From positions 1 to 28,467 of the IMG/VR virus record IMGVR_UViG_3300031772_004596: a DNA stretch of 28,467 bases; one strand, 5' to 3'. Numbering within the stretch: position 1 is the stretch's first letter; each line of letters opens with the position of its first letter. This stretch comes from a virus. Below the pieces are notes generated by a model. It was not told the origin of the DNA and ran no database searches. It worked only from the letters and a program-made list of their open reading frames with translations. Positions 2,509 through 27,629 of the stretch are shown piece after piece. Both the position numbers and the translations under genes were made by a program.

Positions 2509-2537
2509 TCGCTCTCCTCTATTCGCGCTGTCGCATG

Positions 2538-3005: not shown

Positions 3006-3015
3006 CGTTTCTCTT

Positions 3016-3837
3016 TTACATTCGCTGCTGTTGATCGAGCATTCTCGTGATCACCGGCCAGAATGTCCCTACACCGGCGGCAAAAGCCTCCCCGGCAGAA
3101 CCCGTCCGCCCATTGACGCCCATACGGAATGGACCCACGTTTGGATCGCTCACGCCTTTCGTGGCATTAGTCACGGTGAGAGTCCTGGTCGGATTGGCCC
3201 ATCCCCAGTTCGGTTCGGGACTGTCATCCCCCCACAGGGGCCAATAATCTTGCAGGTTTGCAATGTTGCGCCGGAATGGCTGTCCGCCCTTGAGCGCAGG
3301 CGAAACTCCCCAATCGGCGCCATAGGCATCAATGTCGTTCCAGATAGCCACATTGGCGACCTCTCCCGCCGCCGGGTATGAACCTGCATCATCGGCGTTC
3401 CCAACGTTCAACGCCAATGCACTCAGGTCCGAGTTTTGCAGTGCGTCCGTACTGTAAGCGTAAATCGCCTCAGCTCCGAGGGTTTGATTCCACACCCAAC
3501 GGTCGATCGTGATTCCAACGTCCTTCACCCCAGTTGACTTCCATCTGATAAGGATTGAGGTCCAACATCCCGCGGTAAATAATTCCGCATCCTCGGTGAC
3601 AACTCGACTGAAACTCTCTCCCTTGGCCCAGCCGCAATAGAGATTGTTTTGTCCCCCCACATAGAATTTGCTAATCTCAAAATAGTTTGGAGCGTCCCCC
3701 ATTCTGAGAATGATGTGATGCTGGTTGTCTCCAGACGACCAGGTAGGACGAATCCATAGCAGCAACTCACCCGCTTGCGGGAAAGGGTAGCTTGTTACCC
3801 TTAGAACTTCGCCGGAAGCATCTACAAGGCGCGACAT
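3016..3837 (-). CDS. LamG/concanavalin A-like jellyroll protein, probable virion accessory
   Basis: A 273-residue protein resembling LamG-like (concanavalin A-like lectin) domains found in phage tail-associated proteins. Visible marks are an N-terminal strand GELLLWIRPTWSSGDNQ (typical of the jellyroll first sheet), WTSILIRWKSTG near the middle, and AGEVANVAIWNDI (residues 160s-170s), the usual late strand. The C-terminal third (YWPLWGDDSPEPNWGW and onward) resembles the closing region of such phage proteins. It lies between two tail-tip-associated genes and the lysis region, fitting a carbohydrate-binding or receptor-contact role. Binding specificity cannot be read from sequence. Confidence 0.75.
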   Translation of the reverse strand: MSRLVDASGEVLRVTSYPFPQAGELLLWIRPTWSSGDNQHHIILRMGDAPNYFEISKFYVGGQNNLYCGWAKGESFSRVVTEDAELFTAGCWTSILIRWKSTGVKDVGITIDRWVWNQTLGAEAIYAYSTDALQNSDLSALALNVGNADDAGSYPAAGEVANVAIWNDIDAYGADWGVSPALKGGQPFRRNIANLQDYWPLWGDDSPEPNWGWANPTRTLTVTNATKGVSDPNVGPFRMGVNGRTGSAGEAFAAGVGTFWPVITRMLDQQQRM

Positions 3838-13534: not shown

Positions 13535-13870
13535 CTAGAGTCCCCTGCTGGTCCGCGCCTCTGCGTGGATGAGCAGATATGTTCCGATTTCCTCCGGCGG
13601 TCCTGTCATGACGAGGCGAGTTCCTTCCCAATCCAATTGCTGGAAGGCCGTCACTCCGGCGCGATACCGAATCCAGATGTTGTAGGGCTGCGTGGCCACC
13701 TGCTGCTGCTGGTCCTCCGCGATCAGACCTCCGCCGAGCGGTTCGATCTTGGCCCAGACGTTGCGGGCAAATGTACTCGTGATCGTGCCGCCCCAGTTGC
13801 TGTCGTAGGGCGGTCCCACGTTCAGGATGTCGACCCGCTCAGTGAGTTCGGCGATCTTCGGCGTGATCAT
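13535..13870 (-). CDS. Head closure protein, SPP1 gp16-like (head-tail joining)
   Basis: A 111-residue protein matching the phage head-tail joining family. It begins KIAELTERVDILNVGPPYDS, continues with VWAKIEPLGGGLIAEDQQQQ (about 38-57), and ends with a beta-rich domain, YNIWIRYRAGVTAFQQLDWE and LVMTGPPEEI. The ERVDI start, W-A-x-I-x-P strand and R-x-G-V strand are the usual marks of SPP1 gp16-like stoppers. It closes the portal-connector channel after DNA packaging and gives the site for tail docking. The ATG overlaps the preceding stop as ATGA. Confidence 0.85.
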   Translation of the reverse strand: MITPKIAELTERVDILNVGPPYDSNWGGTITSTFARNVWAKIEPLGGGLIAEDQQQQVATQPYNIWIRYRAGVTAFQQLDWEGTRLVMTGPPEEIGTYLLIHAEARTSRGL

Positions 13871-14729: not shown

Positions 14730-16184
14730 CTAGGTTTCCTCCGGCACTACGCAGAATCTGTTTTCAGGATCGACGGCAGCGAACCTATTTTCGTTCTCCA
14801 CAGGCCAAAATCTGTTCTCCGCGGCGACCTGCGCCAACCGGCCCGCCAGGATGAATATCCCGAGATTCGTGAGAGTCACCAGCCCGACCGCAGTCCCGGC
14901 TGCGACTGCCGCCAGCGAGAGAGAGATCAGCAGACCGATCGTGAGGGCAACGGTCGTAACCGCCGATGCGGATGCGGCGTCCCCGATACCGAGAGGCCGG
15001 AGTGCGGAGAGAAGGACTGAACTCACCTGGGATGACGACTCCACTCCCAGCGCCTCCAGCCGACGGATCGCCTGCATCAGGACGTTGCCTACTGCCGTGG
15101 CCATGGAGGCCGCAACCGGTGACAGTCCGCGGATCGCCTGCAACGCCACCGTACCGACCTGGGCACTCGAAGCCGCATCCGTTAGTGACGTCAGTTGACG
15201 GATCGCTGTGAGAATGACGGTCGCAATCTGGGTCATCATCACGGCATCGCTGATGCCGAGTTCGGCAATCTTGGTCATCAGGACCGCAGTGACTTCGCTA
15301 TCGCTCTGGACGGCCAGGGCGTTGATGTCGAGTACGCCGATAATGGATACCGCCGCCGTAAGGACGTGCGAAGCCAACATGACATCCGTCAGATCCAATG
15401 CGCGGATAACCGCGAGCGCAAGATCGGATACCGCAGTCGCCGATTCGACGTTGATCGGCTGCAGCGCGCCCGTAATGGTCAGAACGATTTCCGTGACGGC
15501 TGCGAGCGACTCCGCATTCTCGATCCCCAGTTCGCGGCAGACGCTCATCGCGAGCGCCGTTACCGCCGACTCCGAAGGAACATCCAACGGATCGATTTGG
15601 CGAATCGCGGTGATTGCGGCCTCAGTCACTGCCGAATCCGATGAAACGGTTTCGAATCCAATCCCCACGCCGAGAGTTAATGCCACTGCCAGGACAGAGG
15701 AATCGGCGACCACATCGCCAAAGACTAACGCGCGAATGACGGACATGGCCGCGGAAGCAACTGCGGAATCCGCAGCGGCGTCCTCTATCGCCAGCGCCCT
15801 GAGGACGGAGAGCGCGGCAGTCGCGACGGCACTGTCCGAGGAAACATCGCTCAGGGCCAACGCCCGGCGAATGGTCATGGCCAGGGCGGCAACCTGGCTC
15901 TCTGAAGTTACATTCCCAATCGCCAGGGACTGCAACAGATTGATAGCTTCCGTGGCCACTGAAGTATTCGCAACCACATTGCTCTCATTCAAGATGCGAA
16001 TCGCTTGGGCCACGACCGACGATATCGAGGATGCAGCAGCGGGATTGCCCATCGCGATCTCCCGGATCATAGACAAGGCTACGGCAGCCACCTGAGACGG
16101 CGATGATGCATTGTCAAAGGCGAGGTTGACCTCCGCCCCTCCCGTCGTCCAGAAAAATGGCAGTCTAGTCCCGCTCAGGTTCAT
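14730..16184 (-). CDS. 22-residue tandem repeat protein, probable virion accessory
   Basis: A 484-residue protein. The short N-terminus (SGTRLPFFWTTGGAEVNL) resembles starts of phage virion accessory proteins. Residues 22-422 are about 18 tandem copies of a 22-residue unit (a few of 23-24). The most regular copies contain SDSAVATAALSVLRAL preceded by a D-x-x-S turn. The unit has a likely helix with spaced Val/Ala/Leu and a closing Ile/Leu-Arg-x-Leu. A hydrophobic stretch follows (about 424-450). The end carries three ENRF motifs nine residues apart. No signal peptide is present. It may form an extended solenoid or a long amphipathic helix; fibre, linker or membrane-contact roles are possible. 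Confidence 0.82.
   Translation of the reverse strand: MNLSGTRLPFFWTTGGAEVNLAFDNASSPSQVAAVALSMIREIAMGNPAAASSISSVVAQAIRILNESNVVANTSVATEAINLLQSLAIGNVTSESQVAALAMTIRRALALSDVSSDSAVATAALSVLRALAIEDAAADSAVASAAMSVIRALVFGDVVADSSVLAVALTLGVGIGFETVSSDSAVTEAAITAIRQIDPLDVPSESAVTALAMSVCRELGIENAESLAAVTEIVLTITGALQPINVESATAVSDLALAVIRALDLTDVMLASHVLTAAVSIIGVLDINALAVQSDSEVTAVLMTKIAELGISDAVMMTQIATVILTAIRQLTSLTDAASSAQVGTVALQAIRGLSPVAASMATAVGNVLMQAIRRLEALGVESSSQVSSVLLSALRPLGIGDAASASAVTTVALTIGLLISLSLAAVAAGTAVGLVTLTNLGIFILAGRLAQVAAENRFWPVENENRFAAVDPENRFCVVPEET
14745..14819 (-). repeat. Three ENRF-xx-V motifs at the C-terminus of the repeat protein
   Basis: The motif ENRF-x-x-V occurs at residues 456, 465 and 474 of the 484-residue protein, exactly nine residues apart. 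The spacers end V-E-N, V-D-P and V-P-E. Short tandem P/A-E-N/D-R motifs are a recurring end in phage accessory proteins near tail genes, and may be a contact or trimerisation strip. This is distinct from the 22-residue array before it. Confidence 0.7.
14919..16121 (-). repeat. 18-copy array of degenerate 66-bp units coding a 22-residue repeat
   Basis: Residues 22-422 of the protein divide into 18 units of 22 residues with three single- or double-residue insertions (copies 13, 15 and 18). DNA copies are diverged, so the array is recognised at protein level. Copies 4-6 are the most alike, sharing D-x-x-S/A-x-S-A-V-A-x-x-A-x-S-V-x-R-A-L. Repeated 66-bp units may allow length variation by recombination. 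Confidence 0.8.
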
Positions 16185-16934
16185 CTATATCAGCCTCGGG
16201 TTGTCGGGAGTGCCGTAGGGATTGCGACACAACTCTATAGCCTCGGACCAAGATAAACATCTCTGCCAGCATTCATATAGTTCATATGTTCCAGGACACT
16301 TGTTTTCCTGGGCTCCCCTATAGCCACCTCCCACTGACATACGATCAGCTGTTACAGTAGCGGCGGAATACGTAAAGTTCGTAGCGTCTTGCTTCCCATC
16401 AATATATAGAGTTAGTTTACCAGCCCCATCATCCGACACAACAACAGAATGTCTTATATTATCAAACACATTTGATGTGCTTACTTCGTATCCTTGGTGA
16501 TCGCTCCCACTATTGTCCCTCACGAAAAACCAAGCTTTATTACCATTATCCCAGCCACAGGACATGCCACACATAGATGTGCCCTGACTAAGATGATATG
16601 CAAATCTATAGCTATAACTCGATCCCAAAAAGGAACCGATAAGATGAACCGAGAATGGCCCACCAGTTGCAAGAGTGATGGTAGGAGTAATACCTAGTGT
16701 ATATGCAACACTTGCATTATTACTGACAGAGTAACCATTGGGCTTCCACAATCCAGGAGTAATGAGATCAGAGCCTATTTTAGCACATAGGTCATGCGCT
16801 AATGGCCCTGCAAATTCTCTGAATAAGAAACAGGACATTAATCTTCTATTCAACGGATGCTCCCAATTTATCTTCACCCGTTCGCACGAGAGCGGCTTTC
16901 TCCAAGTTATTGCTGGTAGTACAGCAAGAGGCAT
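16185..16934 (-). CDS. LamG-like lectin/glucanase-fold protein
   Basis: A 249-residue protein with a LamG-type (concanavalin A-like) domain. It has GPFSVHLIGSFLGS in the first half, SVVVSDDGAGKLTLYIDGKQ (about 163-182, the typical x-L-Y-I-D-G-K strand), then DRMSVGGGYRG and YELYECWQRCLSWSEAIELC. The last part continues to the end NPYGTPDNPRLI. These strands and the end are typical of phage-encoded LamG proteins. An AGGAG ribosome binding site lies about 7 nt before the ATG, and one base separates it from the upstream stop. The coding sequence is clearly AT-richer than its neighbours (locally about 35-45% GC by eye), suggesting recent acquisition. Probably binds glycans on the virion surface. 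Confidence 0.8.
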   Translation of the reverse strand: MPLAVLPAITWRKPLSCERVKINWEHPLNRRLMSCFLFREFAGPLAHDLCAKIGSDLITPGLWKPNGYSVSNNASVAYTLGITPTITLATGGPFSVHLIGSFLGSSYSYRFAYHLSQGTSMCGMSCGWDNGNKAWFFVRDNSGSDHQGYEVSTSNVFDNIRHSVVVSDDGAGKLTLYIDGKQDATNFTYSAATVTADRMSVGGGYRGAQENKCPGTYELYECWQRCLSWSEAIELCRNPYGTPDNPRLI

Positions 16935-16935
16935 T

Positions 16936-17388
16936 CTATGCTCCTGGAATGTATGACTTCGGACGGCACCAAACTCCCCAACCTGTACTCAGAGTCTGCG
17001 CCGTCGTATTCTCAAGATAGAAATAGCAACTAGATGAAAGTGGTACATCAGGCAACGGAATATATCCGGTGGAATTCGTCGCCATGCTCTGCTGCAAAGG
17101 GAAACTGCCGACATAGAGCTGTTTGAATGCAGCTGAAGGGACAATTGAGTCTATGGTCCCTCCGAGCAGGTCCATATCGCATCGATAGACGTTAATCACC
17201 TGCCAGCCAGCAAGGGCCGAGCCAAATCCCGCGACGTATAGCACCAAGTCGCACAACGGCCAGTTGCCGTGATTGCCACTTGTCATGCTGGCATCTGGTG
17301 CACTGGCTAAGGCAACATTTGCAATCTGTGCCCCGTCGGTTTCCAGGGCGACTGAACTCATGTAGGTCCATTCTACTTCATTCGCCAT
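16936..17388 (-). CDS. Phage accessory virion-region protein, unknown function
   Basis: A 150-residue protein of a type common in siphovirus accessory regions. It starts MANEVEWTYMSSVALETDGAQ and has a middle segment VINVYRCDMDLLGGT. The end has YIPLPDVPLSSSCYFYLENT and TLSTGWGVWCRPKSYIPGA. The overall pattern is beta-rich, with no signal peptide, helix anchor or catalytic motif. An AAGGAG ribosome binding site lies 6 nt before the ATG, which is 11 nt inside the preceding GT gene. It is next to the LamG-like gene and may be a virion protein paired with it. Function unknown. Confidence 0.72.
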   Translation of the reverse strand: MANEVEWTYMSSVALETDGAQIANVALASAPDASMTSGNHGNWPLCDLVLYVAGFGSALAGWQVINVYRCDMDLLGGTIDSIVPSAAFKQLYVGSFPLQQSMATNSTGYIPLPDVPLSSSCYFYLENTTAQTLSTGWGVWCRPKSYIPGA

Positions 17389-18040
17389 CTTTCACTCCTT
17401 CAGGTTTCGGTACATCTTCCCACCGAAATGCCCAAGTTCCCATATGCCAGCAGAGTTTTGTCGCATCGTGATCGACGTGAATAGGGAATCCAGCCTCAAC
17501 TACCTTTCTGCAAAACGGTGCATCTTCCGTTGTGTAGTGGTCCGTGAGCATGTTGTAGCCGATAAGGAAGCGGGGCCGCTTGATTGCTTCAATTACCTTA
17601 CGCTCTATCAGGGCAAATCCAAATCCGGTGAAGTTGCATTCCTCAACGCCTGTTGACTCTGGCCCAGTCCAGACTCGAGTTTTGCCATCAAGAGACAATG
17701 CGGTGAAGTCCGGTTTCACTCTCTGCTTCATGCTGTAGTTCACGGCCACGTAGGGCAGTTTCCTCGATGCAAGCATATGAAGCACCTGAGGTTGAAAAGC
17801 CATATCGGCGTCGATAAAGCATAGATGGGTGCAGTCTGTGGCCAGGAATGCTTCTGCATGACGTTCTCGATTCGCACTTAGCACGCAGGAGTTCTCGGGA
17901 GTCAAGTAGCGCAACCCCTGACGCGGATCATCCTCATAGACTGGCCGCTGACTGAAATAGAGGATCAACTCTATCATCGAGACGCAGTACTCCATGCAGG
18001 GATGGCCGACATACGGAGTTGCGATGGCTACGGTGAACAT
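17378..18040 (-). CDS. Glycosyltransferase-like protein, GT-A fold (GT2-like)
   Basis: A 220-residue protein with GT-A glycosyltransferase marks. It has VAIATPYVGHP at the N-terminus, a loop with SANRERHAEAFLATDC (about 55-70), and the metal-binding segment LCFIDADMAFQP (about 73-84) with D-A-D. The acceptor-side TEDAPFCRKVVEAGFPIHVD lies near residue 190. Proteins of this type are often next to phage structural genes. It is separated from the main glycan cluster by a homing endonuclease and a structural-region gene, so it may add the first sugar to a virion protein (inference). Its ATG overlaps the upstream TAA by one base. Confidence 0.82.
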   Translation of the reverse strand: MFTVAIATPYVGHPCMEYCVSMIELILYFSQRPVYEDDPRQGLRYLTPENSCVLSANRERHAEAFLATDCTHLCFIDADMAFQPQVLHMLASRKLPYVAVNYSMKQRVKPDFTALSLDGKTRVWTGPESTGVEECNFTGFGFALIERKVIEAIKRPRFLIGYNMLTDHYTTEDAPFCRKVVEAGFPIHVDHDATKLCWHMGTWAFRWEDVPKPEGVKDGE

Positions 18041-18498
18041 TACGGTGTTGCCCTCAATGCCTGCGCGATGTCCATTGGAGAGACATTCGTGCCTACGCCA
18101 AATAGTTGCTCGGCCCGTGAACCAGAACGTGACGCCAGTGCTCGCAGTCGCACTTCGCTCTGGCTTCCATTGACGAGGAATCGCATCAGATTCGTCATCA
18201 CTCGTGTGTCAGAGCCGTTCTCTTTGAGTATGCGAATCTGCTGAAACTGCGTCAGGCTCTCCAGCCATGATCCCATGAGAATTGTCTGCGCATTGGCCGC
18301 CACGAAATCCTGAACGCTGATCGCCTCCAGAACTTCCAGCGGACTCACATCCGGGCGCGGCATGACGATTGCGGCCCGAGCAAGGTTCAGCATATCGGCG
18401 AGGCCCTGATCGTTTCCAATAGCGATCAGCGGCGCGTAGCCGTAGGCGTTCGGATCAACCAACAATTCTTGGCGTAAATTCTGGTAATTTATAGGCAT
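18040..18498 (-). CDS. Phage structural-region protein of unknown function
   Basis: A 152-residue helical protein of a type recurring near fiber-tail adaptor genes in siphoviruses. It has LRQELLVDPNAYGYAPLIAI near the start, LADMLNLARAAIVMPRPD, and SVQDFVAANAQTILMGSWLE (about 61-80). The C-terminal half has RALASRSGSRAEQLFGVGTN. The D-P-x-x-x-G-Y start and the later A-x-S-R-A-E-x-L-x-G/x-G segment fit that group. It has no signal peptide or membrane helix. AGGAG lies about 10 nt upstream. It is the first minus-strand gene after the plus-strand HNH gene, so its transcription must cross or restart at that insertion. Role unknown. Confidence 0.72.
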   Translation of the reverse strand: MPINYQNLRQELLVDPNAYGYAPLIAIGNDQGLADMLNLARAAIVMPRPDVSPLEVLEAISVQDFVAANAQTILMGSWLESLTQFQQIRILKENGSDTRVMTNLMRFLVNGSQSEVRLRALASRSGSRAEQLFGVGTNVSPMDIAQALRATP

Positions 18499-18501
18499 TT
18501 T

Positions 18502-19269
18502 ATGTTAAACTCCTATGTAATGAATACGAAAAAGCGTCCATTGTGCTCAATCATTGGTTGCTCCGCTTCCCATCTTGCGAGAGGCTATTGCAAAACTCAT
18601 TACTACCGCTGGAGAAGACGCGGAGACCCGAATGTGGTTTTGGTCCGTCATTGCCAAGAAATATGTAGGATCGATGGATGCGGACAGCCTGCCATTGCGC
18701 GAGATCTGTGTCCCCGGCATTACATGCGTTGGCGCACTCACGGCGATCCCACGATCGTTCTCCAGGGCCCTCAGGGTTCCGGATATTTGGACCCCATGGG
18801 ATACCGAATCATCCGCGTGGCTGGCAGGGGCCAACTTAAAGAACACAGGGCCGTGATGGAAAAGGCTATCGGCCGACCGCTGAATTCTTGCGAGCACGTT
18901 CACCACATAAACGGAAACCGATCGGACAATCGCCTTGAGAATCTCAGACTGATGCCAGCGGCGCACCATATTTCTCTGCACCACCGATTGCCAATCAACA
19001 CCGATGTTGAGAAATTGTGTCCTGGTTGTCAGAAGGTCTTGCCGAGAACCGCATTCAACGCAAATCCCGCTCGCTATGACAGAATCGCTCCCCATTGTCG
19101 AGAATGCAGAAACAAGGCCTATATTCCTCGGCCGAAAAGGTCTCCGAAAAGTTGCTGGTGCGGGAAACCATTCAAGGCAAAAGGAATGTGCGCCTATCAC
19201 TATCAACATTCACGCCTTCCAATAATCAGGCAGGCCAGACTTCGCAAGATCAGGAAGTCTCCAACATAA
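18502..19269 (+). CDS. Free-standing HNH homing endonuclease with Cys-rich DNA-binding repeats
   Basis: The only plus-strand gene, 255 residues. The HNH core lies at about 110-160, with EHVHHINGNRSDNRLENLRL (131-150) and the following HHISLHH. It contains the two His, the N-x-x-x-D-N and the trailing His residues expected for HNH_3-type nucleases. Two zinc-binding units precede it (C15-x4-C20-x9-C30-x2-H33 and C55-x4-C60-x9-C70-x2-H73). A treble-clef-like C173/C176/C199/C202 follows, then a third copy (C218-x-C220-x9-C230-x2-H233). No Shine-Dalgarno is obvious; a second ATG at 18520 is an alternative start. It is inserted between the GT9 gene and the next minus-strand gene and converges with the GT9 gene. 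Confidence 0.88.
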   Translation: MLNSYVMNTKKRPLCSIIGCSASHLARGYCKTHYYRWRRRGDPNVVLVRHCQEICRIDGCGQPAIARDLCPRHYMRWRTHGDPTIVLQGPQGSGYLDPMGYRIIRVAGRGQLKEHRAVMEKAIGRPLNSCEHVHHINGNRSDNRLENLRLMPAAHHISLHHRLPINTDVEKLCPGCQKVLPRTAFNANPARYDRIAPHCRECRNKAYIPRPKRSPKSCWCGKPFKAKGMCAYHYQHSRLPIIRQARLRKIRKSPT

Positions 19270-19297: not shown

Positions 19298-20125
19298 TCA
19301 GAGGAATTCCTCCGCCACTCTTATCACTGCCGCTCGATCAATCTCCAGGCATCGCCAATCTCTGCAAGCTGGCCATCTTGGCGTGCTCACGCATGGATGG
19401 CAGGGCACCGTCGCGGCCACCTTCCGCTTCTGGGGACCAATCGGATCCGCCTTGTATTCGCTCGTCGCCGTATAGACCATCACGACCGGGATTCCGAGAG
19501 ACGAAGCGAGGTGAACGACCCCTGAATCTCCGCCAACGATGACCCGGCACCCCGCAAGGGCATCGGGCAACTTCGATATATCCGGAGTCCAGACGAATTC
19601 ACCTGGTATGGACTCGCAATCGTCGCCGGGCAGGCCAAAGACCGCCACGCGCCGACCTTCCTTTAGGAAATGCGCCGCCACGTCCTTCAGCCCCGGCCAC
19701 CGCTTCCGGATCCAATACCCGCCTTTGCAGCCCGGGACGATGCCCACATCCCACCGCGGCGTCCGGTCGAGGTCGCGGCACCAGTCCGACACGTCCAGCC
19801 AGCCGCCCTGATATCCGATCGACTGTGCCATCCGCAGGTTGGACTCCCAGACCGGGTCATAGATATTCCGTAGGGCAAACCGCAGGAACCGTCCGCCTTT
19901 CCATGCCGGCGGAGCATATTCGCCCGCCATCAGTCGATTTCCGTTCAGGTTGCCGGGTCCTGCCACGGCCCGTTTGGCATAGACGCAGCGCTTCCAGAGA
20001 TCGACGGTCGGGAAGTCGGTCTGGACGTACAGTTCCACCTCTTGGCCGATCGTCGTTAGAGCTTTGATAGCCGGCAGCATAAAGCAACAATTGCCGAGGC
20101 CCGATGCCAGTCCGATGGTTAGCAT
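19298..20125 (-). CDS. GT9-like glycosyltransferase (ADP-heptose/LPS heptosyltransferase type)
   Basis: A 275-residue GT-B-type enzyme, shorter than usual GT9 proteins (about 330-350). The N-terminus LASGLGNCCFMLPAIKALTT corresponds to the G-x-G-D-x-x-x-x-x-P-x-L motif. The C-terminal donor-binding motif is IVGGDSGVVHLASSLGIPVV followed by MVYTATSEYKADPIGP, typical for heptosyltransferase-like enzymes. The end has paired cysteines (PCHPCVSTPRWPACRDWRC). It is the last gene of the main glycan cluster and overlaps the GT4 gene by 7 nt. It would transfer a sugar from a nucleotide donor to a growing glycan or protein; donor and acceptor cannot be told. Confidence 0.85.
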   Translation of the reverse strand: MLTIGLASGLGNCCFMLPAIKALTTIGQEVELYVQTDFPTVDLWKRCVYAKRAVAGPGNLNGNRLMAGEYAPPAWKGGRFLRFALRNIYDPVWESNLRMAQSIGYQGGWLDVSDWCRDLDRTPRWDVGIVPGCKGGYWIRKRWPGLKDVAAHFLKEGRRVAVFGLPGDDCESIPGEFVWTPDISKLPDALAGCRVIVGGDSGVVHLASSLGIPVVMVYTATSEYKADPIGPQKRKVAATVPCHPCVSTPRWPACRDWRCLEIDRAAVIRVAEEFL

Positions 20126-20952
20126 GGGATGCCGATTGCCTCACACCAGAGCGACCGCCAAGCCGCGAATGAATAGGAGGCATAGTAGGATGGCTTCCGC
20201 CGTCCGGCCTCCAATTTGCGCCTCACAGCATCGATCACAAGGGCGACATCATCGCGGTCCTGCCAGCGGATCATCTCGGCGTCATCGAATTCTCGGTAGT
20301 TTCCAGTGTCCGTGGACACGATCGGTAGCCCGGCCGCCTCGGCATCGCACACCGAATAGGAACCGCCCTCGGACAGCGACAGGCAGAGGTAAAGGCTGGC
20401 GGCGCCGTACTGCGCCCGCCGGCCGGATCCGTCCGTGAACTGAAGCGGCTTGAATTCCCAGTCAGGGCAGGCTGCGGCGAGCTTCTTCCAGGTCGAGTAG
20501 CCCTTGTTGTTGTCGCGCCAGTCGCCGATGATCTTCGGCTTGCCGTACTTCGGCAGCGGCTCGATCGGTTCCACCCAATGCGGGATCACCTTCGCCTCGT
20601 TGCCGAATTGCTCGGCGACCCAAGCGCTCGGCGCGACGAAGGTCCGGTTGGGCAATTCCAGCATCTTCCGCTGGAGTTCTACGACATGCTTTAGCCGTTC
20701 ACCGCGCCAGGCCGGGTCGCGGTCAAAATGGATGCGGGCACATCCGTGATGGCAGACCGTGGTGGGAATCTCGGCCGGAACCTCGCAGGAGAGGTGGTTG
20801 TCGGTGATCACGACATCGTCTGGCCCAAGACTGGGCAGCACGGTCAAGGACTTCAGATCCGGGAAGACCCGCCGCAGGGAGAAGTCAAAGCGACCCACGC
20901 CAGTCCAGGCACCCTGCTCGACTGTCTTGCTGACGTAGCTAATTATGGCCAT
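20119..20952 (-). CDS. GT4-like glycosyltransferase (GT-B)
   Basis: A 277-residue protein with the C-terminal donor-site motif of GT4 enzymes. LCLSLSEGGSYSVCDAEAAG (about 193-212) is followed by LPIVSTDTGNYREF, where E-x7-E-like spacing is partly kept (SEGG...CDAEA). N-terminal to it is PSAWVAEQFG (about 109-118), typical of the linker before the second Rossmann domain. The N-terminal domain is short, so the protein is compact, as often in phages. It overlaps the deacetylase-like gene by 14 nt and GT9 by 7 nt, which suggests a coupled operon. Donor sugar and acceptor unknown. Confidence 0.83.
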   Translation of the reverse strand: MAIISYVSKTVEQGAWTGVGRFDFSLRRVFPDLKSLTVLPSLGPDDVVITDNHLSCEVPAEIPTTVCHHGCARIHFDRDPAWRGERLKHVVELQRKMLELPNRTFVAPSAWVAEQFGNEAKVIPHWVEPIEPLPKYGKPKIIGDWRDNNKGYSTWKKLAAACPDWEFKPLQFTDGSGRRAQYGAASLYLCLSLSEGGSYSVCDAEAAGLPIVSTDTGNYREFDDAEMIRWQDRDDVALVIDAVRRKLEAGRRKPSYYASYSFAAWRSLWCEAIGIPC

Positions 20953-21637
20953 TGAGATATACCGCCGCCGGGATGATGTAAGGGCCGATCTCGTCGGCCA
21001 GCCACCGGATTCCCTCGAGGTTCTTATGGAGTCCCGCCTCCCAGGTAATATGCACGGTCAGAACCGCCTTGCCGGGCCAATCAAGTAAATCAGGGAGAAC
21101 CTCCCGTAGGGGAGGAATGTCGTCGCGCATCCAGCCCGTGACGGCCGCATAGGTCGGCTTCCAACTCGGGACGAAGATGATATTTTCGAGCGGATAGGGC
21201 TGCGGAGGCGTCGGCCAGTCGCTTGGATCCGTCCGGGTATGATGCCCGCCGCCCCAGAGATACCTGATTCCCTCATGCATGCAGGCAGTCCCGAGTCCGA
21301 ACTCGTACTGATTATTCGGCAGGACCATGTCCTCCCATGCCACTTCTGCGATTGCCCGCCTTGCCTCGCATATCCTTTCCCGGCATTGCTCCATGGTGAG
21401 GCCCCGGAATTCGACGGGCCCGTGATCGAATCCATGTATGGCTACCCTCATGCCTTCTGGTTTCGACTGCAGCCAGGCCAAGCCGTCGGCATCCACGCAT
21501 GACGGGATGACGGCGGCGAGATAAGGCAAGCCCTGAAGCAGCGCATGGCACCGCTGGGCGAGCTCCAGACCGTGGTCGATCTTGTCATCAGATGCTGGAT
21601 TCCAGCCGGCATCATCAAGTCTCAGCGCAAACAGCAA
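20939..21637 (-). CDS. Polysaccharide deacetylase-like (CE4/DUF2334-type) protein
   Basis: A 232-residue protein whose marks fit the NodB-homology fold. ALRLDDAGWNP at the start gives the first Asp pair. VAIHGFDHGPVEF (about 66-78) gives the metal-binding His-x-x-x-His. A late strand KAVLTVHITWEAG (about 198-210) gives a further His near the end. CE4 enzymes use a metal ion to remove acetyl groups from N-acetylated sugars. The start is an alternative TTG codon inside the preceding aminotransferase gene (23-nt overlap). In this cluster it could edit an amino sugar after or before transfer; catalysis is not proven by motifs alone. Confidence 0.72.
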   Translation of the reverse strand: MLFALRLDDAGWNPASDDKIDHGLELAQRCHALLQGLPYLAAVIPSCVDADGLAWLQSKPEGMRVAIHGFDHGPVEFRGLTMEQCRERICEARRAIAEVAWEDMVLPNNQYEFGLGTACMHEGIRYLWGGGHHTRTDPSDWPTPPQPYPLENIIFVPSWKPTYAAVTGWMRDDIPPLREVLPDLLDWPGKAVLTVHITWEAGLHKNLEGIRWLADEIGPYIIPAAVYLNGHN

Positions 21638-22238
21638 CTGATGCCCCCTTATAGACTTCTGACTTGCTCAGATCCGGATAATGCTGATCTTCAAAAGGCA
21701 GATCCGGCAGATCCAGGTGCTTCAGTGATGCGAAGAGCAGCAATCCCCGCGCCGCCTGCTCGGGCTGCATATATGCGTTGAAACCGAGTATGCTGAATTC
21801 CTTCTGCTGACTGAGATCGCACTCCTCGCGGCCATCGAAACGCGCCAGTCGGAGCCACCGGTCCGCCTCGGGATCATCCGTCAGGATCATGCCTCCCCGG
21901 CCGATTTTCAAATGCTTGCGACTATGGAAGGAAAGGCACAATAGTCCGCCCTTATACATCCCGGGCCGGAATCGCAGGGCCCCATCCCAGATCTCCCAGG
22001 GGAAGAGTTGATATACGCCAACCCATGAGAGGGTATGGAACCTAACCGATCCGCCCGCATGGATAATCGCGCAAGGCACTGATGGATAGGTGCGAGCCGG
22101 AATCTCGACTTCTTTGACCTGGCGATAGACGCAGCACAGGAATATCGCCGCCGAACAGCTTTCCACCGCCACCGCATAACGCGACCCGGCGTATTCAGCG
22201 ATCGCCTCCTCGAACTCCCTCACAACGCGATATGGCAT
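21615..22238 (-). CDS. Short DegT/DnrJ/EryC1/StrS-type aminotransferase
   Basis: A 207-residue protein of the PLP sugar aminotransferase fold, much shorter than the usual 360-400 residues. The N-terminal half is well kept: FEEAIAEYAGSRYAVAVESC (about 9-28), then VEIPARTYPSVPCAIIHAGG (about 44-63). The PLP-lysine segment is LSFHSRKHLKIGRGGMILTD, with Lys108. The second half of the family is absent, but short forms of this type occur in phages. DegT enzymes add an amino group to a 4-keto or 3-keto nucleotide sugar. Whether the short form is active, or has become a binding protein, is open. It overlaps the DUF6625-like gene by 19 nt. Confidence 0.8.
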   Translation of the reverse strand: MPYRVVREFEEAIAEYAGSRYAVAVESCSAAIFLCCVYRQVKEVEIPARTYPSVPCAIIHAGGSVRFHTLSWVGVYQLFPWEIWDGALRFRPGMYKGGLLCLSFHSRKHLKIGRGGMILTDDPEADRWLRLARFDGREECDLSQQKEFSILGFNAYMQPEQAARGLLLFASLKHLDLPDLPFEDQHYPDLSKSEVYKGASVAVCAET

Positions 22239-22960
22239 GGCCAGCGATTCGTTCCCGGGAAGTGGAAGTTGAGCAGCTCGCCGCCCAAGTTCCCTGTCTT
22301 ATCCATGCGAAAGAGCTTGTTGCCCTTCAAAGCGCATCGGCTCCACGGTTCCGTCCTGTCGTGGGAGTCCAGATCCACGGGATAGAGCCCAAGCATCCTA
22401 CCCGCTGCAATCTCCTGAACCACCACTTCCTGCATGCCGCGCTCGTCCATGTGATATTGGGCGGTGGCCGACGCGACCATCTCCATCCGTTTCCGGTAAA
22501 GCTGCCGGAACTCGGGAGTGTTCCTGAAAATGGTGAATGGTCCGTTTACCGTATAGGAGGCACTCGAAATCATGTCGTACAGATCCAGCCGCTCATCCGT
22601 CAGGTACGAATCCCAATCGCCCCAGACGCAGTCCCACTCGCCCCAACCCCACCATGGATATGAGGCGACTGCTTTGGGGTACATATCCGCCATCATCGGC
22701 CGCAGTTCACATAGGCACTGTCCGCGCCCGAAGCCGGGCGTCGATTTATGCACCGGGACGCCCGCCGCTTCGCTTGCCCGCGCTTCGAATTCGTCCATGG
22801 TGCAGTGGATCCTCTTCAGACCAATGGACGGCTCGAATCCAGCGGCGTCTCCCACGAGTATTATCTCGAGTGATTGCAACGCGCAGGCCCGCATAATGAA
22901 CTGACTCTCCCATCCAGGCGCCGGGCCCCACCAGGGCATGAAGATCCCGGCTACAGGCAC
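22220..22960 (-). CDS. DUF6625-like putative glycosyltransferase
   Basis: A protein of about 246 residues resembling the DUF6625 group, thought to be glycosyltransferase-like. The marks are CELRPMMADMYP (about 82-93), then SYPWWGWGEWDCVWGDWDSY. The latter matches the family W-G-x-x-D-x-D-x-x-W-G-D pattern, where acidic residues may bind metal and nucleotide sugar. I chose GTG at 22960 over the ATG at 22990 because a GGGGGAG ribosome binding site is 6 nt before it and the overlap with the upstream gene falls to 10 nt. The C-terminus GELLNFHFPGTNRWPCHIAL gives the family-like FHFP. Substrate unknown. Confidence 0.72.
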   Translation of the reverse strand: MPVAGIFMPWWGPAPGWESQFIMRACALQSLEIILVGDAAGFEPSIGLKRIHCTMDEFEARASEAAGVPVHKSTPGFGRGQCLCELRPMMADMYPKAVASYPWWGWGEWDCVWGDWDSYLTDERLDLYDMISSASYTVNGPFTIFRNTPEFRQLYRKRMEMVASATAQYHMDERGMQEVVVQEIAAGRMLGLYPVDLDSHDRTEPWSRCALKGNKLFRMDKTGNLGGELLNFHFPGTNRWPCHIAL

Positions 22961-23517
22961 CAGACACTCCCCCTGACGGACGGATCGCATTGGTAGGGCA
23001 ATCCCTTGAGCGCCGCTATCACCGTGGCGTCATTGCCGTCATGGCCGCAAAGCAGCCCGCCCGCCTTCAGCTTCGGCCTCCAGACCCTGAGGTCATCCGA
23101 AACTCCCGGCGTTCGGTGATCCGCGTCGATGAAGATCACATCGCAGTTCCCATCAGGAACCTGGCCGGCCGCTTCCACCGATGGCTTCATGATGATCTGC
23201 GTGGTGAGGTCGGGCCGCATCGCCCTTACTTCATTGAGCACATTCATGAAATCGTGAAGTACCGACCCGCCGCGCTCGTTCAGGATCCGCGCCACCGTCG
23301 GATCCCACATCCCGCTCTGGAAGGTATCGACCGAAATGATCCTAGAGTTGGGCGGCAGGCTCAACGCCACCGCCGACCAGCTCCTTCCCATCCAGGTCCC
23401 CACCTCCAGCCAAACAGCGCCGGGTTTCAGGGCTGCGGCCGTCAGGATAAGGAAGGCGAGCTCATTCTCATACATCCACCCCGTCACGCCCAGCGCGTAT
23501 TCAAGAGCTGAGCTCAA
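22951..23517 (-). CDS. Class I SAM methyltransferase (Methyltransf_24-like)
   Basis: A 188-residue methyltransferase. The SAM-binding glycine motif is AVWLEVGTWMGRSWSAVALS (about 34-53). A second acidic strand RIISVDTFQSG follows, then DVIFIDADHRTPGV (about 127-140), the D-x-x-F-I-D-A-D-H segment typical of cephalosporin hydroxylase-like and Methyltransf_24 enzymes that O-methylate sugars. The C-terminal GGLLCGHDGND fits too. The start is TTG at 23517, inside the preceding methyltransferase gene (17-nt overlap). Probably methylates a sugar hydroxyl in the glycan made by this cluster. Confidence 0.82.
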   Translation of the reverse strand: MSSALEYALGVTGWMYENELAFLILTAAALKPGAVWLEVGTWMGRSWSAVALSLPPNSRIISVDTFQSGMWDPTVARILNERGGSVLHDFMNVLNEVRAMRPDLTTQIIMKPSVEAAGQVPDGNCDVIFIDADHRTPGVSDDLRVWRPKLKAGGLLCGHDGNDATVIAALKGLPYQCDPSVRGSVWCL

Positions 23518-24127
23518 ATACCTTGCTCCCGATCATCAGTTGATGAACCTGCGAACCATGCAACGGATTCTGGTGGACGAAAGAACCGCAATCCTCCCAC
23601 TTCAGTCGCGGCCAGAGGTCCATGTAATCCGCCGGCCCGGAATGCCGCATATGCGCCCCGCCGCCGCCCTCGGCATAACTCACGTTTTCAAACAGGACCA
23701 GACTCCCGCCGGGATTGAGGATCTCCTCGAATCCCTCGATGATCCTGGCCAGCACGGCATCATCCGTGACGTGTTGCAAGACGGTGCAGGTAAAGATCAT
23801 GTCAACCCGGATGTCACGCGGCGGTTCGCCCTGGCAATAGAGCGTTGGCGGCCTGCCCTTCCAGTCGGCCTTGAGGCCATCGAGCGCCGCCTGGCTCAGG
23901 TCCACGCCATAGAGTTTTGCCTTCGGCCATTGTGCACGCAGATGCCGCATCATTCGACCGTAAGCGCATCCCTGCTCGAGGATGCTCGCCGGGTTCAGGT
24001 TCGCAACGTGAGGCGCGATGAACTTCCAGAGATCGGCCGCGTTCTCTTCGGTCCCGGCCTCGATAGCGCCTTTGGCCATGCGCGCGGTCCAGTGGCCGAT
24101 GTATGCCTCTCCCGTCAGCTTGTCCAA
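23501..24127 (-). CDS. Class I SAM-dependent methyltransferase
   Basis: About 208 residues with a SAM fold. Motif I is ASILEQGCAYGRMMRHLRAQ, followed by AKLYGVDLSQAALDGLKADW with the ribose-binding Asp. IFTCTVLQHVTDDAVLARII is motif IV, and ILNPGGSLVLFENV is the post-motif strand. I chose TTG at 24127, which has GGAGG 7 nt upstream and trims the overlap with the FkbM gene to 13 nt. A longer frame begins at ATG 24208 but would lie in the end of the FkbM gene. The tyrosine/histidine-rich acceptor side gives no clear substrate. Confidence 0.8.
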   Translation of the reverse strand: MDKLTGEAYIGHWTARMAKGAIEAGTEENAADLWKFIAPHVANLNPASILEQGCAYGRMMRHLRAQWPKAKLYGVDLSQAALDGLKADWKGRPPTLYCQGEPPRDIRVDMIFTCTVLQHVTDDAVLARIIEGFEEILNPGGSLVLFENVSYAEGGGGAHMRHSGPADYMDLWPRLKWEDCGSFVHQNPLHGSQVHQLMIGSKVFELSS

Positions 24128-24774
24128 GATCTCCCCTCCAGAATATAGGTATCCGGCGCCACTTGTTCTATAGGCCCGTAAAGCTTGCTTATCGGTCCGA
24201 GATCGCACGGTTCCAGATGCGGATGTAGCGTGATGAGGACCGTCGGGCGAAAGCTCTCGAAGAATGCCACATCGGCCAGGACAAGCGCTTCCGCGCCCTC
24301 CGCGTCGATCTTAACCATGTCCACCCGTTGCATATTGCGGGCCAAGTCCGATAACGTGCAGCACGGCACGTCAAAGCAATCCATTTCGGAATGTACGCTC
24401 GTCATGCTGCTTCCCAATCCGTCCACGCTGCCCAGGCGCAGGATGCCGAGGCGATCGGCGATTGCTCCGGTGCTCGCCACGATCTTGAATTCAGGATTCG
24501 CCCGCACGTTACGCCAGAACATCTCATAGGCGACCGGATCGGGCTCGATTGCATGGCATTGAGCGCCCCCTGCGGCGGCATACAGGCTCACGGCGCCCAA
24601 CCACGCGCCTACATCGATGAATACACCGTCCGGTCGCAAGTATCTATCCAGGGCTTCAAATGTGTACGGCTCCCAATGCCCGTTTTCGACTTCGTCCCAG
24701 AAGAGCTGGTGAATACATTGCTCGTCCTCGTCCACAATGAACTGGCGGCCTCGGAGAATTATGGTCCGTTTCAT
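24115..24774 (-). CDS. FkbM family methyltransferase
   Basis: A 219-residue protein with all FkbM marks. These are VFIDVGAWLGAVSLYAAAGG (about 50-69; motif I), CHAIEPDPVAYEMFWRNVRA (the E-P-x-P segment), and VDMVKIDAEGAEALVLADVA (about 151-170; the K-I-D-x-E-G-x-E signature). FkbM enzymes O-methylate sugars and related hydroxyls, and are frequent in surface-polysaccharide loci. The ATG overlaps the GT2 gene stop as ATGA. It is the first of three methyltransferases in a row, so the glycan may be multiply methylated (inference). Confidence 0.88.
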   Translation of the reverse strand: MKRTIILRGRQFIVDEDEQCIHQLFWDEVENGHWEPYTFEALDRYLRPDGVFIDVGAWLGAVSLYAAAGGAQCHAIEPDPVAYEMFWRNVRANPEFKIVASTGAIADRLGILRLGSVDGLGSSMTSVHSEMDCFDVPCCTLSDLARNMQRVDMVKIDAEGAEALVLADVAFFESFRPTVLITLHPHLEPCDLGPISKLYGPIEQVAPDTYILEGRSWTS

Positions 24775-25454
24775 GATTGCCTGAGCGGAGGCTCCTCGCC
24801 GTCCGGTTGGCTGTTGCCCCAGGAGGACTCATCCGATTTGTAGAGAAACGTCCGCACGAGATTCGGGAGGCAGATAATCCTGTCGCCTGTCTTCTGGATC
24901 GAGTGAGGCGAATCCCTGACGATCCACCAATCCACGTCCGATCCTACTCCCCTGACGCGGCCCGGCACTCGCTTGGGTGCGCCAAGCGCAAATGTCGGGA
25001 TCGGCATGATGGATTGCCAGAACTCGCGATTGGCGTGCATGTGCACCGCGGCGCAACTCTGTTTGATCTTGAATCCGTTTATGTTCTGGGTCGCTGCATG
25101 ATAGCGGGAATCATGGCCGGTATAGAGCGCCGCCGGCATCTGCTTGGCCGCCGTCGCAAGTTCCTGAAGCAGTAGCGGATGCACGTCAACGTCATCCTGG
25201 AAATAGCTGATCCATTCGACCGATTTGTCGGCAAGCCAATAGGAAAGACCAATATTCAGAGCGGCGGCGAGACCGCGGCGCTGCGGAATGCGCAAATAAT
25301 CAGCGGTCGCGCACTTTAGATCATAGAAAGCGCTCTGGATTCCATGGCTTCCATCATCGACGATAAGAACGGGTGGGCCAAGCGAACAGATCTGCGGCAG
25401 GGATCGCGCTAGGGCCTCCGGACGGTTGCAGCTGGTGACCAGGATCCCAATCAC
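24771..25454 (-). CDS. GT2-like glycosyltransferase
   Basis: A 227-residue GT-A enzyme. The N-terminal motif is GILVTSCNRPEALARSLPQI, followed by PPVLIVDDGSHG (nucleotide-binding Asp pair). RRGLAAALNIGLSYWLAD (about 58-75) comes next, then the metal-site acidic run WISYFQDDVDVHPL (about 81-94) with D-D-x-D. The start is GTG at 25454, which overlaps the preceding 52-residue gene's stop as GTGA. A second His/Asp-rich region (GSDVDWWIVRDS) lies near 169-180. Likely transfers a sugar in glycan building; specificity unknown. Confidence 0.85.
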   Translation of the reverse strand: MIGILVTSCNRPEALARSLPQICSLGPPVLIVDDGSHGIQSAFYDLKCATADYLRIPQRRGLAAALNIGLSYWLADKSVEWISYFQDDVDVHPLLLQELATAAKQMPAALYTGHDSRYHAATQNINGFKIKQSCAAVHMHANREFWQSIMPIPTFALGAPKRVPGRVRGVGSDVDWWIVRDSPHSIQKTGDRIICLPNLVRTFLYKSDESSWGNSQPDGEEPPLRQS

Positions 25455-25609
25455 GATAGGTTCCTTCTCATCGCATTCAGCTTCTTTGCGATGCGATCCA
25501 CCCTTTTCTCTATGGTCTCAACCGTCGCTTTCAGCATCTGAACTTTGGCGATCGCCTCTTTCGTATCCAAGTCGAACTTCATCGTTATTTTGTCAAGTGG
25601 TAAAGCCAT
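25451..25609 (-). CDS. 52-residue helical protein, unknown function
   Basis: A small gene between the two GT2 genes. ATG at 25609 has a strong ribosome binding site (GGGAGG, 8 nt upstream), and its stop overlaps the next GTG in a GTGA. The product begins ALPLDKITMKFDLDTKEAIA and continues as an amphipathic, positively charged helix (KVQMLKATVETIEKRVDRIA and KKLNAMRRNLS), like a short coiled coil. It may help complex formation or be a chaperone-like small protein. Function unknown; the coupling and ribosome binding site make translation likely. Confidence 0.72.
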   Translation of the reverse strand: MALPLDKITMKFDLDTKEAIAKVQMLKATVETIEKRVDRIAKKLNAMRRNLS

Positions 25610-25628
25610 TACTATTTCCTCCCGATAG

Positions 25629-26297
25629 TTAGCATAGCGACAACCTCAGCTTCTCATTCTCCCAGAATCCGGCCGGGATCAGATCCTTTGACACGATGTC
25701 CTTCACGCCGACTTTGCTCGACGTATGGTCCAAATGAATCCGTGCCACAATGTACCGAGTCTCAGGCGACGGCAAAACGTGAGACATCATCGGATAGATC
25801 ATGCCGTTGTCCGTGGCGACCTGTTTATCCTTGAACTGATTCGCTTGCCAGAACGCCTTCCGATAGCAGAAGGATGTCCCGCAGATATAGTTATTGATCG
25901 TCGGCTTGTACCGCTTCGCCTGCTGCTTCAGCACGTCCCAGAAAAGCAGAGTACCGAATCCGGTGATCATCTTCTGCGAGGACTGAAGCAGGCCGACCTG
26001 AAAGCGGATCCGCTCGGGAGCGCTCCAATCGTCGCTATCGTAGTGGCAGATGATGCCTCCGTGCGTGAGCGAGCAGACGAGATTCCGCTTCGCGCCGAGC
26101 GTGATCCCCGGCCTGATCACGGAGTAATGCACGTTCTCCATTTCGAGTCCGTCCGGGAAGCTCCGGCAATCCTCGTCATCCACCACGATCAGTTCCTTGT
26201 TCGGCCAGTCCTGCTTCTGCCAGCAATTGAGGGCCGCTGCAGCCATATCGCGCCGACCGCGAGTCGGCATTACGCAGGAGACCAATTCTTCAGGCAA
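25629..26297 (-). CDS. GT2-like glycosyltransferase
   Basis: About 222 residues with GT-A marks: VSCVMPTRGRRDMAAAALNC at the N-terminus, ELIVVDDEDC (nucleotide-sugar Asp), GITLGAKRNLVCSL, then IICHYDSDDWSAPERI (D-S-D-D metal site), and a C-terminal DNGMIYPMM. I chose TTG at 26297, which overlaps the connector stop by 8 nt and has AGGGA about 8 nt upstream. A longer frame from ATG 26354 would start within the connector gene. This is the first gene of the glycan cluster. It directly follows the head-tail connector, so it is part of the structural operon. Confidence 0.82.
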   Translation of the reverse strand: MPEELVSCVMPTRGRRDMAAAALNCWQKQDWPNKELIVVDDEDCRSFPDGLEMENVHYSVIRPGITLGAKRNLVCSLTHGGIICHYDSDDWSAPERIRFQVGLLQSSQKMITGFGTLLFWDVLKQQAKRYKPTINNYICGTSFCYRKAFWQANQFKDKQVATDNGMIYPMMSHVLPSPETRYIVARIHLDHTSSKVGVKDIVSKDLIPAGFWENEKLRLSLC

Positions 26298-26619
26298 GGA
26301 CCGGATCCCTGAATCGGTGGAGCATGTCGCGCGTCGCCTGCGACAAGACATCACCCTCTTGGCGATTCTCGAACAGGTTCGCGAGCACCCGGAATACGCC
26401 CGCGCGGATCACTTCGCGCTCCGGTATATCGAGGCCGATTTGATCGATCCCGTTCGGCGCAGGCGACAGGTCATCCGGGACCGTGATCGTGTTGCAGTAA
26501 TCCAATACGATGGCACTCGCCTGGCCGATCAGGGCCATTACCTCATCGTCGAAGCGGTCGTCTTGATCGTCCAGCCGGAGCCGAACCTTTGCTTCGTCCA
26601 AATCGACTAGGTAGATCAA
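26290..26619 (-). CDS. Head-tail connector protein, HK97 gp6-like
   Basis: A 109-residue helical protein of the gp6 family, which forms a ring under the portal. The N-terminus VDLDEAKVRLRLDDQDDRFD and following EVMALIGQASAIVLDYCNTI are typical. The C-terminal helix REVIRAGVFRVLANLFENRQ (about 68-87) matches the family ending. Start is TTG at 26619 overlapping the collagen-like gene stop as TTGA. It lies 5-7 genes earlier than usual relative to its partner head-closure gene, because the glycan cluster and accessory genes lie between. Confidence 0.86.
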   Translation of the reverse strand: MIYLVDLDEAKVRLRLDDQDDRFDDEVMALIGQASAIVLDYCNTITVPDDLSPAPNGIDQIGLDIPEREVIRAGVFRVLANLFENRQEGDVLSQATRDMLHRFRDPVLA

Positions 26620-27629
26620 TGCTTGCTCCCGTCAAACGCCAGTTGCGTGAGATCCCTGCCGTCCTTCCCGTCTTTGCCTGGAGGACCCTGCTTGCCCTCT
26701 GAGCCATCCTTGCCGCGGCGCCCCTCTTTTACGATCAGGCGCCACTGCGGATCCTTGGATCCATTCTCGCTCGGCATGAGCTTCGCCCCGTCGGTCAGAC
26801 AGTGCCACGTCGACCCGCCGTAGGTGACCACGTCGCCGCGTCCATACTCGCCCTCCGGCTTCCAGATGCCGCGGTAGAGCATCACCGGAACGCGGAACAG
26901 GTTCACATCCTCCGCTTTCGTCTTCCTGCCTGTCAGCCTCGTCCTTACGCCAAAGATGCGCGGATCGTCCGGATCCTGGAAGACCTCGATCTCGGCGATT
27001 CCGCCCAGGACTACCTCCCAGCTGCGCTCAAGCTCCTCACCCGCGATGCTATCTTTGAAGGAACGAATGATGCCGCCGTCGTGTCGGGCATAAGTGCCGC
27101 GAGGATAGGCTCGGGAGAGGTCCACCGTGGAGAGAATGTCGATCTGCAGGGCGTCTCGCCCCGGGGCACCATCCTTGCCGGGAGGGCCGGTGATTGTCTC
27201 ACCTTTTTCGCCAATCGGCCCGGCAGGACCGATAATCGTCTCACCCGGATCGCCTTTTTCTCCGCGCTCTCCGCGGTCTCCCTTGATCGACTCTCCAGGG
27301 TCTCCTTTTGGCCCGCTTGGTCCCTCACCGCCGTCGCTGCCGTCTCGGCCTTGTTGACCTTCTGGCCCTCGATCTCCCGTTTCACCCTTGATCGACTCTC
27401 CAGGGTCTCCTTTTGGCCCCGGCGGCCCGGGGATGGCCAAGCCTGGTTCGCCTTTCTCGCCGCGCTCCCCGGGATCTCCCTTCTCCCCCTTGATCGGATC
27501 GGGGATACTCCTCAGCCGGCGGTCGATATCGTCGAGCCGAAAGGATAAGCCCCCTACCACTTCTGCTATGTGCTCTTTGATTGCCCTGATGACACCCTTC
27601 ACCACCGCCCGATCGTCTGGATCTGTCAC
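26616..27629 (-). CDS. Collagen-like protein with carbohydrate-binding (CBM5/12-like) domain
   Basis: A 337-residue protein between portal and connector. Residues 1-45 are helical (VIRAIKEHIAEVV), possibly a trimerisation or attachment helix. Residues 48-158 are Gly-X-Y collagen-like repeats rich in Gly-Glu-Lys and Gly-Asp-Pro. Residues 160-250 form a mixed domain. Residues 251-303 resemble a CBM5/12-type chitin/sugar-binding module with YRGIWKPEGEYGRGDVVTYG and the STWHCLTDG strand. A second short collagen-like stretch (304-325) follows. Starts with GTG overlapping the portal stop as GTGA. Such proteins may decorate the head or neck; trimeric collagen-like fibres are common in phage. Possible glycan acceptor (inference). 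Confidence 0.87.
   Translation of the reverse strand: MTDPDDRAVVKGVIRAIKEHIAEVVGGLSFRLDDIDRRLRSIPDPIKGEKGDPGERGEKGEPGLAIPGPPGPKGDPGESIKGETGDRGPEGQQGRDGSDGGEGPSGPKGDPGESIKGDRGERGEKGDPGETIIGPAGPIGEKGETITGPPGKDGAPGRDALQIDILSTVDLSRAYPRGTYARHDGGIIRSFKDSIAGEELERSWEVVLGGIAEIEVFQDPDDPRIFGVRTRLTGRKTKAEDVNLFRVPVMLYRGIWKPEGEYGRGDVVTYGGSTWHCLTDGAKLMPSENGSKDPQWRLIVKEGRRGKDGSEGKQGPPGKDGKDGRDLTQLAFDGSKH
27281..27419 (-). repeat. 34-bp direct repeats in the collagen-like gene
   Basis: Positions 27281-27314 and 27386-27419 are identical over 34 bases and lie 105 bases (35 codons) apart, in the same frame. Both code the segment GPKGDPGESIKG. This exact identity suggests a recent in-frame duplication within the Gly-X-Y region and a source of length change by recombination. 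Confidence 0.85.

Follow-up and report, generated by a model that had tools for sequence, protein, structure and literature searches.

What does a run of sugar-related genes do amid the head and tail genes of a tailed phage? The question is raised by IMG/VR record IMGVR_UViG_3300031772_004596, a 28,467-base contig from an uncultured phage that was analysed as a whole (hereafter the window), in which a block of eleven open reading frames (ORFs) occupies positions 19298-26297 of the minus strand. We consider it reasonably probable that this block is a swappable virion-glycosylation island within the late operon of a tailed phage. At the same place, related viruses have other versions of it, a pattern that suggests exchangeable sugar coats. 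Ten of the eleven genes are of glycan type, the exception being a 52-residue ORF. They are given below in block order, with families called by Pfam and NCBIfam hidden Markov models (HMMs); phage structural genes were called by phrog profiles.

25629..26297, minus strand: GT2a, a GT-A family-2 glycosyltransferase (GT), first core gene (PF00535, 1e-8; TTG start)
25451..25609, minus strand: 52-residue coiled-coil-like ORF (strong GGAGG ribosome site; no family matched; absent from the relative L002)
24771..25454, minus strand: GT2b, a family-2 GT, core gene (PF00535, 1.6e-9; invariant YFQDDVDV motif)
24115..24774, minus strand: FkbM-family methyltransferase (PF05050, 6e-10; TIGR01444, 1e-22)
23501..24208, minus strand: MT12, an S-adenosylmethionine (SAM) methyltransferase of the Methyltransf_12/25 type (HMM, 1.5e-9; true start probably near 24127, TTG)
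22951..23517, minus strand: MT24, a SAM methyltransferase of the Methyltransf_24 type (PF13578, 3e-16)
22220..22960, minus strand: DUF6625 protein (PF20330, 5e-21; WGDWDS motif; start probably GTG at 22960)
21615..22238, minus strand: compact DegT-type pyridoxal phosphate (PLP) sugar aminotransferase of 207 residues (PF01041, 9e-20)
20939..21637, minus strand: candidate CE4/NodB-like (DUF2334-type) deacetylase (TTG start; weak Pfam value of 0.098 in the window alone)
20119..20952, minus strand: GT4 (GT-B), core gene (PF13692, 1.8e-5, just under the Pfam cut-off; alignment of 8)
19298..20125, minus strand: GT9, a heptosyltransferase-type GT-B enzyme, core gene (PF01075, 3.5e-14)

An earlier note on this DNA had described an unbroken eleven-gene run in this order, coupled into a single translation unit within the late structural operon, and both points were borne out. 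The largest intergenic gap was 19 nt, the junctions of the 52-residue ORF with GT2b and of GT2b with FkbM overlap by 4 nt (GTGA and ATGA, respectively), most other junctions overlap by 7-23 nt, and structural genes flank the block. Values of -40, -65 and -94 were an artefact of taking the longest-ORF start. Gene by gene, the homology searches confirmed the two GT2 enzymes, FkbM, two further SAM methyltransferases, DUF6625, DegT and GT9. The run is above chance, since the block order is conserved in independent phages. Promoter and terminator scans yielded no more sites than in shuffled sequence.

Three further genes delimit the site:

26290..26619, minus strand: Ad1, gp6-like head-tail connector, right border of the island (phrog_40, 2.4e-9)
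18502..19269, plus strand: free-standing HNH endonuclease between GT9 and the fibre-like genes (phrog_5351, 5e-23)
13535..13870, minus strand: Hc1, head-closure protein, left border gene in relatives (phrog_25, 2e-8)

The TTG start of GT2a at 26297 overlaps the Ad1 stop by 8 nt. A portal gene also lies upstream of the block (HMM, 9e-42), while the HNH gene, the fibre-like genes and then Hc1, the major tail protein and the tail chaperone follow downstream. The main genes of the window are all on the minus strand except the HNH endonuclease at the left edge of the island.

Nine further contigs with such an island were found. Single-protein scans with GT9 and GT2a gave nothing new; two-sequence alignments and major tail protein scans succeeded, with L002 coming from the Ad1 scan, L066 from the compact DegT scan, and L004, L015, L016, L022, L024, L027 and L028 from scans with the major tail protein, GT4 and GT2b. 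Within the extent of each contig, eight of the nine hold the island between the capsid or portal gene and the head-closure gene (Hc), and its position relative to Ad1 takes three forms: before it, after it or split by it. The order GT2b-GT4-GT9 was fixed wherever the core was present, with GT2a ahead of it wherever that gene occurred, including every head-module island; L027 has the core without GT2a. This order was kept across phages at 39-64% identity, GT2b being 48-64% identical to its counterparts in seven other phages. The slot between GT2b and GT4 is variable and was found to hold methyltransferases, DegT, an acyltransferase, CE4, DUF6625, a sulfotransferase or WbqC. At its simplest it is empty, as in L024 (portal-collagen-GT2a-GT2b-GT4-GT9-Ad1-Hc), where four GTs alone thus form a viable set. 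It is filled to differing degrees in L022 (capsid-GT2a-GT2b-MT12-CE4-GT4-GT9-Ad1-Hc), L028 (portal/collagen-GT2a-GT2b-MT12-MT-CE4-GT4-GT9), L004 (capsid-GT2a-GT2b-MT12-MT-GT4-GT9-Ad1-Hc), L016 (capsid-GT2a-Ad1-GT2b-MT12-GT4-GT9-Hc) and L015 (collagen-Ad1-GT2a-(fibre genes)-GT2b-MT24-PglD-DegT-DUF6625-CE4-GT4-GT9-Hc).

Both exchange of the whole island and an empty site were seen. L002 and the window share 83-86% DNA identity through GT2a; beyond that point L002 lacks the 52-residue ORF, and amino acid identity falls to 50% in GT2b. The portal of L066 is 72% identical to that of the window, yet a different glycan set lies between Ad1 and Hc: GT2a-Ad1-[GT2, methyltransferase, PIG-L-like deacetylase, compact DegT, WbqC-like, epimerase, DUF6625-like, two GT2]-Hc, with gene names from sequence motifs rather than HMM scans, the compact DegT call excepted. 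In a cassette-free relative (L013/G007), Ad1 and Hc are adjacent and no sugar gene lies between capsid and tail. Finally, the ninth, an unrelated 96-kb contig (G001), carries the island GT2b-MT12-sulfotransferase-MT24-DUF6625-compact DegT-GNAT-WbqC-CE4-GT4-GT9 upstream of, and on the same strand as, its terminase and portal genes, which were recognised from sequence and not by HMM. The island site shifts, but stays with head and packaging genes. Since other phages also have the island by their head genes, and since in G001 it adjoins terminase and portal, the link to the late operon is more than an isolated case. The earlier note had reasoned from late expression with virion genes to a virion or surface-glycan target; the placement beside head genes held up as conserved, while the virion acceptor is something we still infer. 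Distance correlations between island genes and Hc were mixed and were not used as an argument.

Variable content of this kind, an HNH endonuclease at the block edge and the existence of cassette-free relatives would also fit passenger cargo (a moron) without a virion role, kept by chance at a permissive site in the late operon. We regard this as improbable, given the core order retained between such divergent phages, the invariant PLP residues of DegT (see below) and the selection acting on GT2a. Between the window and L002, the ratio of nonsynonymous to synonymous substitution rates (dN/dS) was about 0.15 for GT2a, 0.13 for portal and 0.08 for Ad1; GT2a is under purifying selection comparable to that on portal and Ad1. 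Tentatively, and with slightly more doubt than confidence, we extend the virion-glycosylation reading to an uncultured siphophage lineage whose head-tail connector locus holds an exchangeable island for a virion glycan, comprising a four-GT core, a combinatorial slot that can be replaced wholesale between near relatives and a widespread compact (about 200 residues) DegT without the usual C-terminal domain, such that related particles would wear different glycans.

The core enzymes bear on the question of which glycan acceptor is served. Profile matches of GT2a in the PDB were the GT domains of heparosan/chondroitin synthase, and SpsA, while GT9 matched heptosyltransferase II (1PSW) in a phmmer search (1e-5). 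Because GT9 resembles enzymes of lipopolysaccharide (LPS) synthesis, the main competing explanation stays alive, namely that the island acts on a glycan of the host envelope at a late stage of infection via a host lipid carrier and flippase, in the service of superinfection exclusion or release from debris. LPS loci often contain WbqC, DegT and CE4-like genes. The authors of a pelagimyophage study argue for a host-envelope role of GTs in host-recognition regions (PMC7029224). We nevertheless judge envelope modification unlikely. The block encodes no membrane protein, polymerase or flippase, with no membrane segment predicted in any block protein (maximum 19-residue hydropathy 1.56), and GtrA was not found in six viral relatives (the control matched in 7 of 14 genomes). 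Moreover, the island sits consistently inside the head module and not in an early or lysogeny region, and late expression would leave little time for envelope remodelling.

The tailoring genes point in turn to oligosaccharide chemistry. MT24 is 48-55% identical to its counterparts in L015 and L027, and FkbM, MT24 and MT12 are probable sugar O-methyltransferases; the methyltransferase families named in the earlier note were confirmed, while its "heavily methylated" glycan goes a step further than the families do. The DUF6625 protein is probably glycosyltransferase-like; its AlphaFold2 model (pLDDT 45) was too poor and was left out of fold searches. For the CE4 candidate, the L015 homologue gave a weak DUF2334 match (1.2e-3), and the NodB-like D-D and H-x3-H residues are kept in five homologues. 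Glycosylation of DNA by phage GTs is well documented (reviewed in PMC12619734), and the block genes could in principle modify phage DNA or nucleotides. This is very improbable: sugar-type methyltransferases, an aminotransferase and a deacetylase suit oligosaccharide tailoring, and no thymidylate-synthase/hydroxymethylase homologue (PF00303) turned up in six viral relatives, of which two are about 44 kb and one 96 kb in length (control matched), the window's own genome being partly known. The earlier note was thus probably right that the target is not DNA. A search for TET/JBP oxygenases gave no match, and neither did its positive control.

For the order of reactions, the sugars, the acceptor and the benefit to the phage, we infer the following scheme. 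GT2a, GT2b, GT4 and GT9 would act sequentially in the cytoplasm, assembling a short oligosaccharide that the slot enzymes would tailor: MT12, MT24 and FkbM would O-methylate it, the compact DegT would introduce a 4-amino group and the CE4-like enzyme would deacetylate it, with DUF6625 possibly adding one more sugar. The glycan would then be transferred to a virion protein that the same operon encodes, candidates being the capsid, collagen-like and repeat/fibre proteins, and exchange of tailoring genes or of the whole set would give related phages different coats. Multi-step glycan synthesis, as proposed earlier, is supported, whereas a "full decoration pathway" is not as worded: no nucleotide-sugar dehydratase or epimerase was found in the window, so nucleoside diphosphate sugars and the 4-keto sugar for DegT must come from the host or from off-contig genes.

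Several points weigh against virion glycosylation. No acceptor protein or glycosite was identified, and no protein-type GT (GT41, Maf) or oligosaccharyltransferase was recognised. The collagen-like gene, ruled out as a universal acceptor, is absent from four island phages (G001, G002, G003 and L022, the last a 12-kb fragment). An envelope-glycan acceptor is possible on sequence grounds, because GT9 is LPS-heptosyltransferase-like and GT2b has homologues as domains of larger cyanobacterial proteins, often beside GT4-like genes. A late-operon location can have reasons besides virion modification, and the phage is uncultured and its contig a fragment.

Mycobacteriophage virion glycosylation typically uses one or a few GTs. 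According to Freeman et al. 2023, as cited in PMC12619734, phage-encoded GTs glycosylate mycobacteriophage capsid and tail tube, and antibody shielding is a possible benefit; two GTs occur in the phages described in PMC11256854 and PMC10955285. The window likewise has four phage GTs (GT4 just below the Pfam cut-off) plus DUF6625, and such genes are co-located with virion genes in several phages. Unlike in mycobacteriophages, however, four core GTs and tailoring enzymes are combined in one swappable island predicted to make a virion glycan. A matching set of genes (GTs, SAM methyltransferases including FkbM, DegT, NeuD acyltransferases) is found in flagellin-glycosylation islands, at a fixed site beside the structural gene fliC; between relatives, these islands differ in individual tailoring genes (PMC4875605). 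Variable glycan genes at a fixed structural site were also found here (window versus L015, L024 and L066; empty in G007), though in a head-tail operon instead of between fliC and fliA, and linked to phage structural genes only. By analogy, the phage island would work like the flagellin islands; with no linked flagellin gene, it is not a member of that group.

Viral parallels outside the tailed phages exist as well. The mimivirus fibre glycan involves a viosamine pathway (L136/L142, L230) with a DegT aminotransferase, an acetyltransferase and GTs (PMC4691112). The product there is a virion glycan, made, as would be the case here, by viral DegT, acetyltransferase, GT and sugar-modifying enzymes, but mimivirus is a eukaryotic giant virus with other gene order and families. 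Its DegT-type aminotransferase is full-length. The gtr serotype-conversion clusters of temperate phages share phage-borne GTs with the island and are located at the attachment site. They differ in that the island lies in the late structural operon and no GtrA-type flippase was found in six viral relatives and no membrane GT in the block.

The compact DegT stands out among the slot enzymes. Its family has matches in at least 336 viral contigs, and all 80 relatives fetched were of 180-260 residues, short of the full two-domain DegT fold of about 360-400. Across 81 sequences the PLP Schiff-base Lys108 and the pyridine-nitrogen Asp85 were invariant, and Ser103, Phe104, a GRGGMILT stretch and Arg137 were invariant or nearly so. 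A decayed pseudogene was ruled out by the 336 viral relatives, the similar length of all 80 fetched and the invariant PLP residues. The best sequence match was GDP-perosamine synthetase (DegT family; PDB 3BN1, 3DR7), to which a compact-only profile aligned in two pieces (3BN1 chain residues 40-101 and 175-253). In contrast to that enzyme of about 370 residues, no alignment was obtained to residues 101-175 or the C-terminal domain. The compact lysine aligned with the catalytic lysine site of perosamine synthetase, where 3BN1 has Lys and 3DR4, which we take to be the catalytic-lysine mutant, has Ala. A GDP-mannose 4,6-dehydratase lies near the gene in 52 of 80 loci (PF16363, 2e-108 for a representative) and a hexapeptide acyltransferase in 15. 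Given the perosamine synthetase alignment and these neighbours, amination of a 4-keto sugar appears the likeliest reaction. An AlphaFold2 model (pLDDT 42, shallow alignment) was too poor to judge the fold and was not used. The enzyme was not found in 294 genomes of one bacterial phylum, in a search run without a positive control. Seven public phage records also match it, five of them annotated with full aminotransferase or synthase names. If this reading holds, the family would raise the question of the minimum size of a PLP sugar aminotransferase.

Among candidate acceptors, one gene lies next to Ad1:

26616..27629, minus strand: collagen-like virion protein (PF01391, 1.8e-13)

In two relatives, the capsid genes are directly followed by a GT2a that bears a small N-terminal domain as a fusion (L004, 3475-4503; L016, 6912-8036), an arrangement that hints at a head target; the domain had no convincing family and was not found elsewhere in the loci searched. 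A 484-residue Ala/Ser/Thr-rich protein with a 22-residue repeat (window 14730-16184) and a 604-residue protein with a 23-residue repeat in the L015 island are further possible glycan acceptors.

A tblastn search of 50,697 public phage records gave no homologue of GT2a, GT2b, GT4 or DUF6625, so those records hold no description of the island, and no paper describing it was found among the open-access papers searched. The new element is to see the block as one form of a swappable island in which the core order is fixed, a slot varies and the PLP enzyme is of a compact type. If the virion-glycosylation reading is true, phage particles have a counterpart of O-antigen or flagellin-glycan switching, with sugar-coat genes exchanged at a fixed socket in the genome, and the benefit of a virion glycan becomes testable by comparing relatives (the window with L066 or with the island-free G007). 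As to the host, the sole genome contig with the whole cassette was an 8-kb contig in an Acidobacteria metagenome-assembled genome (L028); GT4 was in no other of the 396 Acidobacteria genomes searched, and Acidobacteria were not adopted as host. The contig of L016 (G002; 44.7 kb, a 55-bp end repeat and an integrase-looking gene at 2167-3444) is probably the complete genome of a temperate phage with the island.

One GT-like gene outside the span of the earlier note, whose eleven genes otherwise stood, had been missed:

17378-18040, minus strand: further, twelfth GT-like gene, more distant (phrog_1574, 7.5e-14)

It lies beyond the HNH gene; its matches comprised 48 phage records (26-29% identity), two of which bear the annotation putative glycosyltransferase, with homologues in cyanophages and two Manatee Spring phage records. 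GT2b homologues sit inside larger open frames (about 800 residues) of cyanobacteria (L029-L043), at several of these loci beside GT4-like genes. The G+C fraction was about 0.48-0.54 across window positions 16000-19000, which hold the fibre-like genes and the HNH gene, compared to 0.58-0.62 around them.

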